Counted from the stretch's first letter, positions 1 to 6,029 are shown. The stretch is 47,837 bases of DNA from Candidatus Omnitrophota bacterium (GCA_029561735.1 JAKQWZ010000004.1:1-47837); one strand, 5' to 3'. Numbers and translations are program-made. Notes: a model not told the origin generated them from the sequence alone.

Positions 1-3000
1 GAAGGCAAAGTTGGCGAATTTTTCCTGGCCCCGAGTTCAGGCACAGCTTCAGGTAGGGGGGTTTGCTGCTGGGTTTGCGAGGCGGATTTATCGGAATCCG
101 GGGTTTTAAATAAAGTTACCAACGCATATAGTATAAAAATACCGACGGTTATCCAGCCGATTGCCGGATTATACTCAAGCACCTTTTGCGCTCCCTCACT
201 CCATCCCGGAGATGCTGTAATCGGGACTAAGGCCAAAATAGATAGCCATTTTATGTACCAAGGAATTGTGTTTGTATCTAATAAATCACCGCTCAAATGA
301 CTTGATGGTATACGCGGCAAAATAATTTCTGTCATGCGCCTGAACCGTTCTTCACGAAGCCTTTCCATTTCGTCGCGAATCCTTTTACTTCTTTCAAATT
401 CTTCAGACAAACGACGGCCCTCACGTTGCGCATATGTCTGATCTTCACTGTCACTAGCGCCTCTCGCCCCAAAACTTTCTTGCCCGTCTGATGCTGGCGC
501 GCGCCGTATGATTATAGAACCGGTCAATGGCGGATGGTCTTCAGTTTTTGGCTGTGTTTCACGCTTGCTAGCATCAAATACATTTGTTTTTAACCGAACA
601 TGCAATTCCTTTTCAAAATCGCTGATTTTCTCACCTAATCCGCATTTATAGAATGCCCTCTTTATGATCTCTGTGCCGGTTTCAGAATCTTCTGCAGTTT
701 TTGTTTCTTCAAGTAAAATTCTGAGGAAATCAGCTAAGCTTTGCTCTCCGCAGACTTTAATAAACGCCTCCACAAATTGCAACCCAAAAGCATGGTGGGT
801 GTTTCCAAAATAGAGTAGCCCTGGCCTCCAGGGCCTGTTTGCTCTTTCTCCCCATATGCTTACATCAACATCTATCTGCGCTAAACCGCTAAGCTGGCTT
901 AAATCCATATTGTCTGGAATCCCAAACCTATAATCGCCATCAGCATCCCTTCCCATATAAATAGATACCCCTGCGATATAATTAGCAATGCCTTCTTCGA
1001 TAGCAATTATCCTGTGATCTCTTAAACCGCCGGAAAAAGCAAAGCTACATAGACTATGGCCAATCTCATGCAAAATAATCTTTCGTTCGCGCCTATCCAA
1101 TTCATGGGTAAAGGGAACTATATGGGTAACCAAAGCACTAAACCAGCTCTGCCCATGCTCATGAGGAAAGCTTATGTCTGCTTCAGCAAAATATATGTGA
1201 AACCTGCGGCCGGAAGGAATCTGGCCGCCCATTGCTTGAAATCTGCGTATCCCCTCCTCATATAGCCCGACAAAATATTTTACCCTTGTAACAACTTCCT
1301 CCCGGCTTAATCCAGAGAAATAATCACTGGGAACAAAAAATCTGAAGCTATGGCCGGCGTATTCTGCGCCAAGCGAAGCAAAAACTATCTCATGCCTAAG
1401 CCTGCCCGCTTCATTAGTAGGCCCTGTAATGTGCGGGATTTCTTCAATCAATAGAGGAAGATTATTTAACTCTTCAGCTATATACCCTGGCTTTGCTGTG
1501 CCCTGGGTAATTACGGACTGCTGATCCCCGTTTCCCGAAGAAATAGCCATTCCAAAAATTCTCGCGAACCATAGCTCTAATCTATAAAATATATCATTGT
1601 GCCACTGCCAATTCCCATCTTCTTCTTTGGCTAATTTTTTTACTGTAGCGCCTGCGGCAGGCGGAGTTTGCGACTGGGCTTGCGGGGTGGTTGGGATTGT
1701 CGAAACTTGGGCCGGCCGCCTCTTGTTTATCATCTGTAATAGCCGCTGCATCCAACGCGTTTTTACCTGCGGCTTCAGCGAATCCAGATCTTTACTGCTC
1801 AAATCCCGGGTGGCCAATTTAATAACAGCGTCGGAATCTATATAGTAGCTATCGCCGGTTTTCTCGTCCTTAATAAAATTAAACCAAATATCGTCCAGCC
1901 TTGCCATCCATGCTGGGCGTTCTTTATTGATTATCGCGTTATGCGTAATATCACCTTCGGTATATTCGCTTCCTTCAGTATATTGGATTGCTCTGCCACG
2001 GATATATCGTATCAAAAATACTACGCTTTTCCCAAGCTTAGAGTACTGAAATTCCGGGAAAAATCCCCAGTCGTTAAGCTCTCCGGCTCTTCTGTTAAGA
2101 GCGATTTCGTTTATATTGCTAGGTACTTCCCGAACGACCCATTCTTCGCCAGCCGCTGTCTGCGCCACCGGCAAAACCCAAAGGCCGTGGGTTAAACTTA
2201 ACCTGATTCTTACTACTCCTAATTTTTTCAGATAATTTTTTGCATCCTGGCTAAACTCACTGGAATTTACGTCCAGCTCTTGAAAAGCAATAATCTGATG
2301 GTCATCCCAAGCCCCAGACTGATCCGTAAAGGCGTTGACAAAGGCGAGCAAATCCGAATCCCATTGATTATCTTTTGCTTGCCTGTTAATGCGCTCTATT
2401 AAATCAGCAATATCAGCTGCATTATTCAACTTTGCGCTTAATCCAAAGCTATTAAGATACTCCAAGGATCCGCTCAAAAATTTTCTGCCTTTGTCCGTAG
2501 TAACAAATTTCTGCAATCTGTCTAAATATTCCACTGCAGTATGCGGGGTGGTTTCATCAGCAAGCTGCTGAGCTTGAGTTATTCTCGCTCTATCTTCCGC
2601 GTCTCTTTCTCCCGGCAGTTTTACGCTTCCTTCTTCGCTACGCAATAGTTCGTTGATTAATCTTGTGGGCGCGCCTGCGGCTGGCGTGGCGGAAACGCCT
2701 CTTAAATCTGCAAGAGAAATCGTGCTTACATCTGCCTCATCAAAAGTCCCATGCCTGATTTTGTCTTCATTTTGCAGATAATCTAATAGTGTTATTCTGG
2801 CAGCTGCTGATTGCTGTATTGCCCCCTTCAGGATATCAACAACTATAGAGCTATTATTTTTACCCGGGATATATCTCTGGTTAAAGGAAACAAATAAATC
2901 ATTGTTCAGATAACCATATACAGTTTCAAAATAAGTGTCTTTTAGCCCACACTGGTTTTTTAAAACTTCGACTTGGCCCTTAAGAATATTGACGGCAATA

Positions 3001-6000
3001 GCCAATTCCTCTTTACTCAGGCCTCCTTCCATAATCCAGTTTAATATTTTATAAATATTCTGCTTGGCTATTCTTTCATTTAATTGCCAAGCCAACAACT
3101 GTTCAGTAATACCTGCTAAAGTGCCGTCTTTCAAAATAATGGTTCTCTTGCGAGCATATTCTGGCAAATCACCCCCCTTATAGGTAAAAGCCATTCTATT
3201 AGTTCTATCTGGCGTTCTTTCTCTTCCAGTAAAATCTATTAGGCCCAGGTCAAATTCGTGAATAGCATTAGTTCCGTTACTGTGGAACGCGCGATTTCTA
3301 ACCTCTCCGCCTTGCCAGCCATATGCTAACGCTACATTTAAATCGTGCGTAAGAGACGCTGCCGCATATTCTTCCTCAAAGCTGCCTCTATAGGCGCTTA
3401 GGAGAACGTCAAAACAAATCGGGAGAATGAGCATTGTTGCACCTGGATCATAAGAGAAAAGCCGAAAACCATTTTCCTTCAATATAAGCTCAAGATCTTC
3501 CGGCGTATTTAAACCATATTTGCTAAGCGCTTCTTCTAAATGATCTAATGTGTAGCTTGCTCTAAATCTTCCGGTTGACCAGTCTTCATGTCTCTGTAAG
3601 GGATTTGCCTTCATTAGGCGCCCCATCCTCATGCGGGCAGGAATATTTTTGTTACCTTCGTACTGTATTATTAAATCTGTGGCCTGCGAAATAATACGAG
3701 GCTGATTATCCAAAAGCAAAGCTTTTATTATGGTTTGTGAAGGAATTGCTTGTAACTCTATGCGCGCCTCTGTATCATTGGGATTGCTCGATAACAACTC
3801 TAATAAAGCCCTTGCCCTAACTAGCTGGGGATTATCTAAATAGCCCTGGAACAAATCTGTACCCAAGACTTTTATCCACAAACCTAAAGGCCTGCCATCC
3901 CTATGATTATCTTTAATTAAGGCAGATACTAAATCCTTTAATTCCACTTTTGCTAATAGGGCATCGGGCATAGCAAGAAATAAACGTGTTGCTGTGGCTG
4001 TATCAATTTTGTTTGCAGCAAAAATTTCAACTGCCTGCTTGAATATTTCGATACGCTGAACCAAATATTCTATGCCAAAGGCAGGATTACTAGTATTCAT
4101 TAATACGCCTAAAATCTGGCTGATATCACCACTGCCTAACCCAGCAGCATGTAATACAGGAATGTATTTTTTAAAAGCCACTATGCCGGGGGAAAGAAAT
4201 TCTTCAATCGCTGCTTGATTATTTTGAGCTATTTTCCAAGCTAAGTTCTCTAGAATAATGTAACGATATTCTTGCAGATCAAGAGCACTCAATGCTGGGA
4301 TGAACCTCTCAACAAAAACTTGAGCAGTAGCCCGCGGATCATTGGCTGCTGTCAGTATCATTAAAATGCTCCCTCTATCGCCTGCGTCACTAATCCCAGT
4401 ATAATTTAGCTCAGTATCAAGCCTAACAAAAGCGCGGCCTGCGCCTGTATTAACAAATTTTTCAGCGGCGGCCCGAGGATCCTTAGAGCTGACTAAGGCA
4501 CGCAAGATTAACTGCATAAGGCCGTGCTCAAATCCTACTTCGCGTAAATAAGTAATAAGCCGCACAAAAATTTGGGCTGCATCAGTATTTAAAAAATTGT
4601 CTGCTACGGGCTGGCGATCGGCGCCCGAAAATCCGTCACTTGAGGATAAAATAATCCTCATTGCGAGATAATCACGCTCGTCTAAACCAGCATTTTTTAG
4701 TGCTTTTAAGGCCTCTTCGAGCGGATTGCCCCTTCGCGGCGCAACTAAAGTAGGCTGCTGGGCCTGAGTTATTCTCGCTCTATCTTCCGCATCTCTTTCT
4801 CCCGGCAGCTTGACGCTTCCTTCTTCATTGCGCCATAATTCATCCAGGCTCTTAGCTGAAAATTCTGCCAAATAGGTTTTTGCTTTATCAACCCAGGCCC
4901 TGGCTGAAGTAATAATGCTGACTGTTCCTAGGGTTTGATTTGCTCCGGGCATTGCTATGCTTAGATTAGCTCCTCCAGAGAAGTAGCTCCTCACTGTCTG
5001 GCCATAAGGAGTCTGGACTGGCTCTTTGACGCTGTATTCGCCGTCTTTAAAGGATCTTTGATATTGGTCAAAGTAGGTTATTTTTGACCAGAGTTCTTGA
5101 GAAGCAAGGTTGGCCAGGTTGCGGGAATCAATAAGATTAATATACGCGTTAGAGACAGCCCCATTCGGGGACAGTCCCTTGAAACGAGATTTAAACCACT
5201 GGGCCAGGATTAATGAGTAATAGACTTGCCTAAGGGGCGCATACTTCTTGGAAGTATTCACTTCTTTGGTTATCTTAGGGATAATCAATTCACGGATAAG
5301 TTGGCTGGAATATTCATTCAAAGCCTTCATTCTGGGATCAGTAAAGTTGTAGGTAGCTGAATCTTTTAAGTAATCCTGCTCCAGCATTACTTTCAGGGTA
5401 GCTTTGTAGATATAAGCGTTATCTTTGGATTCGCGGATGATTATTTCTCCCGGCACTATCCATGGCCGGGTGAGTGTGGGGATAGTAATATTGTCATAGC
5501 CAAAAAGCTCTCCTGCTCTTTCATAAAGTTTATTCCAGTATTTTCTTCCTTCAGGGGTATTTGGAGAAGTATAGCTGGCAGTATCTTTTTTAAGCTGGAC
5601 ATCGGCTTCTAAAAGTATCTTGCCGATATCAGTGAAGGCTAAGTAATTGTCTATAACATTGTCAGGTGAATCCGGGCGCAGGTTCACCCAGAAGGAATCA
5701 TTGGGCAGAGTCACGCCGATGAGGAAATATTTGAGTAGGGTTTTGGTTTCGGATTGGAGTTTTTGTTCAGAGACAGTCCCCTTCGGGGACAATCCCTTCA
5801 CCCCGTCGCCTTTATCTAAAAGCAATTTAAAAGTATTGGCTTGAGTATCATAGGATAAGTAGCGCAGATGCAGGGGGCGAAATTTATCTGCTGCCGGCAT
5901 AGAACTAGCCGCTCCGATATAAGCAGAAAGATTCAAAGTCCCGGCCACTTGAGCAAATCCTGACTGCTCAAACAAAAGGGAAAAGCAAATAAATAGAGAG

Positions 6001-6029
6001 ATTAATTTAGCGATCTTGGATTTCTTCAT
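1..6029 (-). CDS. Giant secreted protein, incomplete at the left window edge (at least 2009 codons): signal peptide, large uncharacterised N-terminal module, alpha-helical repeat-like middle, HEIGH zinc-metallopeptidase-like domain, predicted TM segment near the left edge
   Basis: Manual reverse-strand translation from ATG at 6029 (MKKSKIAKLISLFICFSLLFEQSGFAQVAGTLNLSAYIG...). No in-frame stop seen over the long stretches read down to base 3. HEIGH at 1056-1070 followed by AIEEGIANY. Absent from the ORF track, probably because it runs off the edge. Confidence 0.88.
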   Translation of the reverse strand, partial: MKKSKIAKLISLFICFSLLFEQSGFAQVAGTLNLSAYIGAASSMPAADKFRPLHLRYLSYDTQANTFKLLLDKGDGVKGLSPKGTVSEQKLQSETKTLLKYFLIGVTLPNDSFWVNLRPDSPDNVIDNYLAFTDIGKILLEADVQLKKDTASYTSPNTPEGRKYWNKLYERAGELFGYDNITIPTLTRPWIVPGEIIIRESKDNAYIYKATLKVMLEQDYLKDSATYNFTDPRMKALNEYSSQLIRELIIPKITKEVNTSKKYAPLRQVYYSLILAQWFKSRFKGLSPNGAVSNAYINLIDSRNLANLASQELWSKITYFDQYQRSFKDGEYSVKEPVQTPYGQTVRSYFSGGANLSIAMPGANQTLGTVSIITSARAWVDKAKTYLAEFSAKSLDELWRNEEGSVKLPGERDAEDRARITQAQQPTLVAPRRGNPLEEALKALKNAGLDERDYLAMRIILSSSDGFSGADRQPVADNFLNTDAAQIFVRLITYLREVGFEHGLMQLILRALVSSKDPRAAAEKFVNTGAGRAFVRLDTELNYTGISDAGDRGSILMILTAANDPRATAQVFVERFIPALSALDLQEYRYIILENLAWKIAQNNQAAIEEFLSPGIVAFKKYIPVLHAAGLGSGDISQILGVLMNTSNPAFGIEYLVQRIEIFKQAVEIFAANKIDTATATRLFLAMPDALLAKVELKDLVSALIKDNHRDGRPLGLWIKVLGTDLFQGYLDNPQLVRARALLELLSSNPNDTEARIELQAIPSQTIIKALLLDNQPRIISQATDLIIQYEGNKNIPARMRMGRLMKANPLQRHEDWSTGRFRASYTLDHLEEALSKYGLNTPEDLELILKENGFRLFSYDPGATMLILPICFDVLLSAYRGSFEEEYAAASLTHDLNVALAYGWQGGEVRNRAFHSNGTNAIHEFDLGLIDFTGRERTPDRTNRMAFTYKGGDLPEYARKRTIILKDGTLAGITEQLLAWQLNERIAKQNIYKILNWIMEGGLSKEELAIAVNILKGQVEVLKNQCGLKDTYFETVYGYLNNDLFVSFNQRYIPGKNNSSIVVDILKGAIQQSAAARITLLDYLQNEDKIRHGTFDEADVSTISLADLRGVSATPAAGAPTRLINELLRSEEGSVKLPGERDAEDRARITQAQQLADETTPHTAVEYLDRLQKFVTTDKGRKFLSGSLEYLNSFGLSAKLNNAADIADLIERINRQAKDNQWDSDLLAFVNAFTDQSGAWDDHQIIAFQELDVNSSEFSQDAKNYLKKLGVVRIRLSLTHGLWVLPVAQTAAGEEWVVREVPSNINEIALNRRAGELNDWGFFPEFQYSKLGKSVVFLIRYIRGRAIQYTEGSEYTEGDITHNAIINKERPAWMARLDDIWFNFIKDEKTGDSYYIDSDAVIKLATRDLSSKDLDSLKPQVKTRWMQRLLQMINKRRPAQVSTIPTTPQAQSQTPPAAGATVKKLAKEEDGNWQWHNDIFYRLELWFARIFGMAISSGNGDQQSVITQGTAKPGYIAEELNNLPLLIEEIPHITGPTNEAGRLRHEIVFASLGAEYAGHSFRFFVPSDYFSGLSREEVVTRVKYFVGLYEEGIRRFQAMGGQIPSGRRFHIYFAEADISFPHEHGQSWFSALVTHIVPFTHELDRRERKIILHEIGHSLCSFAFSGGLRDHRIIAIEEGIANYIAGVSIYMGRDADGDYRFGIPDNMDLSQLSGLAQIDVDVSIWGERANRPWRPGLLYFGNTHHAFGLQFVEAFIKVCGEQSLADFLRILLEETKTAEDSETGTEIIKRAFYKCGLGEKISDFEKELHVRLKTNVFDASKRETQPKTEDHPPLTGSIIIRRAPASDGQESFGARGASDSEDQTYAQREGRRLSEEFERSKRIRDEMERLREERFRRMTEIILPRIPSSHLSGDLLDTNTIPWYIKWLSILALVPITASPGWSEGAQKVLEYNPAIGWITVGIFILYALVTLFKTPDSDKSASQTQQQTPLPEAVPELGARKNSPTLP
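2563..2651 (-). repeat. 89-nt in-frame repeat copy B inside the giant ORF
   Basis: Encodes EEGSVKLPGERDAEDRARITQAQQ; near-identical DNA at 4753-4841, exactly 2190 nt (730 codons) away. Confidence 0.93.
4753..4841 (-). repeat. 89-nt in-frame repeat copy A inside the giant ORF
   Basis: Encodes the same 24-residue block as 2563-2651. Confidence 0.93.
5151..5180 (-). repeat. Palindromic in-frame insert, copy 1 (KGLSPNGAVS)
   Basis: agagacagccccattcggggacagtccctt, near-identical to 5769-5798. Confidence 0.85.
5769..5798 (-). repeat. Palindromic in-frame insert, copy 2 (KGLSPKGTVS)
   Basis: agagacagtccccttcggggacaatccctt, same frame and orientation as 5151-5180. Confidence 0.85.

Follow-up and report, generated by a model that had tools for sequence, protein, structure and literature searches.

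Which protein is encoded by the long open reading frame (ORF) that leaves this stretch of DNA at its left edge, and what could so large a product be used for? The stretch, hereafter called the window, comprises 47,837 nucleotides of a Candidatus Omnitrophota bacterium (GCA_029561735.1, JAKQWZ010000004.1:1-47837; G000:C11:1-47837 in our numbering), and its base 1 is base 1 of the contig. On the minus strand, a single frame runs from the ATG at 6029 to base 3, giving 2,009 codons without any stop; the open frames of 30 Markov-1 versions of the window reached 203 codons at most. A first-pass annotation had proposed at this place a giant secreted ORF of at least 2009 codons running off the left edge, which the translation bore out: ATG start, contig-cut end and, in all 2,009 codons, none of the in-frame stops that would have broken the frame. 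The frame is incomplete because the contig edge cuts the gene, and its absence from the ORF track may be explained by this same cut, since ORF callers that discard open-ended frames would skip it. Judged from its sequence, the frame holds the 5' part of a gene from a hitherto undescribed family of Omnitrophota proteins, whose architecture would run from signal to constant head, variable cargo and a C-terminal GGID signal.

The N-terminal signal peptide claimed in the annotation is present and of predicted Sec type, reading MKKSKIAKLISLFICFSLLFEQSGFA, with the predicted cut before Q. The end of this signal, FxQxGFAQ, is conserved in relatives, one distant family having a signal anchor instead. 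Behind it, as in the rest of the family, lies the head, which over amino acids (aa) 1–365 is 58–69% identical to the relatives aligned. The head was found in 42 of 58 near relatives, often in multiple copies per genome, each heading a different long frame, and in 90 of 285 genomes sampled across the whole phylum Omnitrophota; a first look at the phylum sample gave as many as 81 candidates in a genome, of which about seven per genome were scored. A search through 84,980 species genomes with the head yielded 512 relatives. Among the 80 best, the titles of the 77 named loci were Omnitrophota, Omnitrophica or plain “bacterium”, with the single exception of a Thermodesulfovibrionia bin, which may be mis-binned. 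At all 77 loci the head lies in a stop-free open frame. The complete frames among these loci span 358–3,609 aa, and head proteins are mostly 1,000–4,000 aa long. The annotator's statement that such N-terminal modules head very large Omnitrophota proteins proved correct.

No family in the libraries searched accounts for the head. Neither Pfam (at E<=1) nor NCBIfam matched any part of the whole window protein, an AlphaFold2 model of the head (predicted local distance difference test, pLDDT, 84) had no Foldseek match in PDB or BFVD at E<=0.001, and sequence comparison of the head with PDB returned chance-level penton matches only. Two IMG/VR contigs (L172, L173) also carry a head ORF, which runs into or near the contig end; they are probably host DNA.

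When the bodies of complete relatives were aligned, a second constant part was found at the opposite end of the proteins. Fifty of the 59 complete head ORFs close with GGID[FLM] (“GGIDFR”) and some 110 helical residues. Head and tail go together by genome: among the near relatives 34 had both, eight the head only, none the tail only and 16 neither (p=9e-9), the corresponding numbers for the phylum being 41, 49, two and 193 (p=7e-22). In other families of the class, whose heads are far diverged, the proteins lack the helical tail; 15 of 15 complete head proteins nevertheless carry [GA]GI close to the C-terminus or at its very end, for a chance expectation of about 0.04 per protein. In one single-contig genome it lies within the last 13–17 residues (GGIDLRNMRINLR, GGIDLNRIRLKVIFYEE and AGIDLRRMEIKAK, each followed by the stop). 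Because [GA]GI survives where the helical part is lost, GGID is probably the core of a C-terminal signal. A model of the tail (pLDDT 78) matched no PDB fold at E<=0.001, and 28 tails of relatives had no meaningful match in Pfam. In one genome (G002:C28, L134), a head-tail gene of 4,996 aa is followed by another head-tail gene, the end of the tail overlapping the next head by a few bp, and the two thus form a tandem array.

Between head and tail, the middles of different head proteins are mutually unrelated. Those recognised by Pfam or NCBIfam include methyltransferases, metallophosphatases, GNAT, PP2C, FHA, iPGM, PGK, TIM, GAPDH, enolase, phosphoglucomutase, HEAT and TPR, as well as a PEP synthase (3.7e-279). 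In one protein of 3,609 aa (L068 in JAPLLX010000004.1), head and tail enclose GAPDH, PGK, an aldolase-like part, TIM and enolase, with the motifs of TIM, GAPDH and PGK intact, and a protein of 988 aa (L074) consists of head, complete PGK and tail. Some enzymes are circularly permuted, their C-terminal part coming first (PGK of L068, enolase of L095, iPGM of L026). Most of these genomes also encode, at other places, ordinary PGK of about 400 aa, TIM of about 260 aa and CoaE, and the cargo copies are therefore second copies. The idea that each genome keeps its glycolysis only in giant proteins was ruled out by these ordinary PGK and TIM genes. Cargo PGK is 28–42% identical to an ordinary PGK, and its branches measure 0.8–1.9 substitutions per site, versus 0.05–0.2 for ordinary copies. 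All four TIM catalytic motifs are kept in two families (G058, G064), the other cargo TIM copies being partial.

Heads and middles share one compositional feature, a near-absence of cysteine. Heads contain 0.09% and middles 0.23% Cys, as compared to 1.02% in 17 other genes of the window and 1.38% in flanking ORFs (p=1e-30); the comparisons with window genes and homologs are cleaner, because the flanking-ORF control includes some non-genes. Cys was at or below 0.71% in 62 of 62 middles, and some distant cargos have none across 1,700–2,700 residues. Among PGK homologs, cargo copies have 0–1 Cys and ordinary copies 1–5 (p=0.005). The window protein is Cys-poor as well, with five Cys (0.25%) over aa 30–2009. 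Cysteine is often avoided in the envelope proteins of bacteria, and from its near-absence, strong evidence that does not depend on the signal, we infer that head and cargo very probably leave the cytoplasm.

A short motif, [AV]SS[AP][LVM], marks the borders of the modules. Head ORFs contain 74 copies of it where 1.6 would be expected; the count is 11 for other head or tail ORFs (0.16 expected) and five for 658 other ORFs (2.8 expected). The motif is placed after the head, before the tail and between domains, for instance directly after TIM in L068. A looser form, [AVGTS]SS[AP][LVMI], was never inside a Pfam domain (0 of 46, versus 23% expected, p=5e-6). Since the codons of the motif vary, selection acts on the protein level. 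Such a sequence would suit a protease site as well as a flexible joint. Several relatives are without it, so it does not define the family.

One contig (G064:C33, 55,264 bp; L130–L132) consists entirely of a single frame, which is open at either end, encodes 18,421 aa and contains 31 SS[AP] motifs. Its concatenated, housekeeping-type domains include glucanotransferase, FBPase, PGK, CoaBC, CoaD-like, CoaE, ThiG, FolD-like and others. Head and tail were not seen in this frame, which has an intermediate Cys content (0.73%).

In the window genome itself, the sole tail is on contig C50 (L128, G000:C50:1-3020), in a 1,006-codon frame that is open at its start and has two methyltransferase domains ahead of the tail. 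One head, one tail, a contig cut in both and a similar linker suggest that C11 and C50 could belong to one gene, which would then have at least 3,015 codons. Against such a joining speak the lack of sequence overlap between the two contigs and the Cys content of the C50 cargo, 1.26% with 11 Cys ahead of the tail.

We interpret the family as a two-ended export frame with recruited, interchangeable cargo that would act beyond the producing cell, against or within a partner such as prey or host, and give this tentative reading a probability of roughly 45%. Export of the chain from the cytoplasm would be the task of the signal; judging from their conservation and position, the head and the GGID tail may sort, fold or hold the chain. 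The cargo would be interchangeable and, in relatives, would often stem from duplicated cytosolic proteins, glycolytic enzymes included, that lost nearly all Cys and diverged rapidly; the [AV]SS[AP][LVM] borders would act as flexible or cleavable joints. The most likely use would be on or in a partner cell, where enzymes that depend on ATP and metabolites could find substrates. Such use fits best because these enzymes have no obvious substrate outside cells. Confidence is high that the head, the GGID signal, the cargo pattern and the Cys depletion are real, and low to moderate for the use of the proteins.

Several observations weigh against this interpretation. A number of cargo enzymes are partial or without catalytic motifs, and enzyme activity is therefore not generally kept in the cargo. 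The high Cys content of the C50 cargo is unlike that of all other middles. In the main group the tail is not depleted either (1.76% Cys, with a semi-conserved Cys in 22 of 28 tails), and may therefore not be exported; the helical tail may remain within the cell, may be removed or may make use of its cysteines. Pieces of the window protein had no match in Pfam, its own middle matches no enzyme, and reading its translation disclosed no SS[AP] motif in the middle, which has its own repeated linker instead. The head family could not be connected to any secretion machinery, protease or partner cell. A search for an ATP/ADP translocase, a marker of parasitic lifestyle, was also empty, but its control was silent too, which makes it uninformative.

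The main rival is a surface scaffold or adhesin, in which the proteins coat the cell and the enzyme folds serve only as stable binding modules, like the moonlighting glycolytic enzymes of other bacteria. The export signature, the degenerate cargo enzymes of several proteins and the HEAT and TPR repeats of other middles suit this explanation, as does the adhesion or predation view of Omnitrophota giants in passages of PMC10066038. It accounts poorly, however, for the complete active-site motifs of some diverged copies (TIM of G058 and G064, PGK of L074), and the top families of the scanned middles include no classic adhesin domains. We regard it as possible, if unlikely. The proposal in the first-pass annotation of a surface, predation or adhesion factor could not be established for the window protein either, in which no adhesin or wall-degrading domain was found; the recognisable middles of its relatives are mostly cytosol-type enzymes. 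Export as far as another cell may also be imagined in a stronger form, with a second, near-Cys-free and partly circularly permuted set of central-metabolism enzymes sent out as polyproteins between head and GGID tail, cut at SS[AP] and working inside that cell; this we consider rather doubtful.

Under neutral accretion, duplicated gene pieces would have been caught between export head and tail and would be drifting, with size under little selection. Long branches of cargo PGK, partial copies, circular permutations and a window middle without homolog in 128 genomes could all arise in this way. Frames of thousands of codons nevertheless stay open, some active sites remain complete, and uniform Cys loss and border motifs require selection, which makes drift an improbable explanation. 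Still more improbable is a metabolic compartment, to which head and tail would send a second enzyme set, in the periplasm or in a membrane-bounded space, so as to separate glycolytic steps from the cytosol. The five enzymes combined in L068, its intact TIM, GAPDH and PGK motifs, and the iPGM and PEP synthase of other chains speak for it; but in most genomes only a few such enzymes are in the frame, many copies are degenerate, cofactors would be required outside the cytosol, and the cargo of most proteins is non-metabolic or without known function. Finally, an assembly or annotation artefact (fused genes, wrong frame or chimeric contigs) can be practically dismissed, for although the genomes are metagenome bins and the window contig ends in this gene, the same architecture, with conserved and stop-free protein sequence, recurs in dozens of independent assemblies, with heads on single-contig genomes among them (G207:C1, G337:C1).

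The features of the window ORF are listed in Table 1. Its middle, searched in 128 genomes of the order, matched only itself, and the part that had been described as helical repeat-like belongs to no family that could be matched. Of the metallopeptidase-like domain proposed in the annotation, the motif HEIGH...EEGIANY stood; the region had no Pfam match at E<=1 and no convincing PDB sequence match, and thus no family profile match as a zinc metallopeptidase (gluzincin type). The predicted hydrophobic helix near the edge is present, in 19-mers starting at aa 1954–1959.

Table 1. Features of the truncated head ORF in the window
Feature	Position	Strand	Basis or remark
Open reading frame, 2009 codons, truncated by contig end	3..6029	-	Window translation and contig position
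Predicted Sec-type signal sequence, aa 1–26, ending FEQSGFA, then Q	5952..6029	-	Sequence; FxQxGFAQ conserved in relatives
Conserved head module, aa 28–355	4965..5948	-	58–69% identity to relatives used; no Pfam or NCBIfam model, no PDB or BFVD fold match
In-frame palindromic DNA element 1, TGTCCCCGAAGGGGACTGTC, GLSPKGTVS, head loop	5766..5802	-	Sequence
In-frame palindromic DNA element 2, TGTCCCCGAATGGGGCTGTC, GLSPNGAVS, second head loop	5154..5173	-	Sequence
Linker copy 1, aa 395–427, contains ELWRNEEGSVKLPGERDAEDRARITQAQQ	4749..4847	-	Sequence comparison
Variable middle, first part, aa 428–1124	2658..4748	-	No homolog in 128 genomes of the order, no Pfam match
Linker copy 2, aa 1125–1155, near-identical to copy 1	2565..2657	-	Sequence comparison
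Variable middle, second part, aa 1156–2009	3..2564	-	No homolog or family match
HEIGH (aa 1654–1658) and EEGIANY (aa 1678–1684)	978..1070	-	Zinc-peptidase-like motif only
Hydrophobic helix, aa 1954–1977, before contig edge	99..170	-	Hydrophobicity, 19-mers

The gene is probably placed beside the replication origin, as had been supposed. It is accompanied on one side by a tetrapyrrole-methylase-family gene, a glmS-like gene, tRNA-Glu, gyrA, gyrB, dnaN and dnaA, and on the other by yidC and parA; dnaA, dnaN, gyrB, gyrA and the glmS-like gene, together with yidC and parA, support this placement.

Heads in several genomes also harbour small palindromic DNA elements, of the types TGTCCCC..GGGGACA and, longer, GGGGACATTTTCC...GGAAAGTGTCCCC, inserted in frame at the same head loops (aa ~80, ~225 and ~290). 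They were seen in the heads of L027, L030, L044, L046 and L102 as well, and also in some tails. As small palindromes in frame within protein genes they resemble the Rickettsia palindromic elements, from which they differ by their sequence family. Palindromic repeats were set aside as the main story of the locus: they are real, yet the window genome has only four sites, and they are a side feature.

Giant ORFs of Omnitrophota have been published, in PMC10066038 (Seymour et al. 2023), PMC12057145 (citing a 2023 preprint, West-Roberts et al.) and PMC11573180. A 39,678-aa protein of Velamenicoccus is among the known giants. Passages of PMC10066038 describe giant proteins with “few annotated domains”, and Omnitrophota as proposed predators or symbionts. 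As far as these passages go, the published giants and the head proteins have in common the phylum, a giant secreted type of protein, few annotated domains and poorly conserved bodies. The ORFs counted there exceed 20 kb, however, and are larger than most head proteins; 6 kb of the window ORF are visible before the contig ends. The passages of the three papers, which do not cover the 2023 preprint, make no mention of a shared head, GGID tail, border motif, Cys depletion or housekeeping-enzyme cargo. What is new here would be the GGID/[GA]GI C-terminal signal, the cytosol-type cargo, the Cys depletion and the border motif, in a family absent from the libraries searched.

Three known systems resemble the family in part. 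In type IX secretion cargo, too, exported passengers of any kind are flanked by a signal and by a conserved sorting domain at the C-terminus, with many paralogs per genome. The tail described here has no meaningful Pfam or fold match and is helical in the main group, there is an additional constant head of 330 aa, and the cargo is of cytosol type. Membership in Type IX cargo was rejected, the tail matching no known C-terminal sorting domain (Pfam, 28 tails) and no PDB fold. Polymorphic toxin systems also combine a constant front with effector-like modules swapped among paralogs, but here constant parts are at both ends and no toxin domain dominates. In PEP-CTERM, LPXTG and GlyGly-CTERM proteins, a short C-terminal signal similarly follows a variable body, and GGID starts with two glycines; in contrast, the motif of the tails that were read is not followed by a C-terminal transmembrane helix with a basic cluster, and the window protein has no NCBIfam match.

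The head and the GGID signal provide a sequence handle by which giant proteins of Omnitrophota can be found, counted and tested in any genome, so that their purpose and destination become questions open to defined experiments. If the proposed export is true, Cys-stripped duplicates of glycolytic enzymes sent outside would be a new bacterial way to deploy metabolism beyond the cytoplasm.

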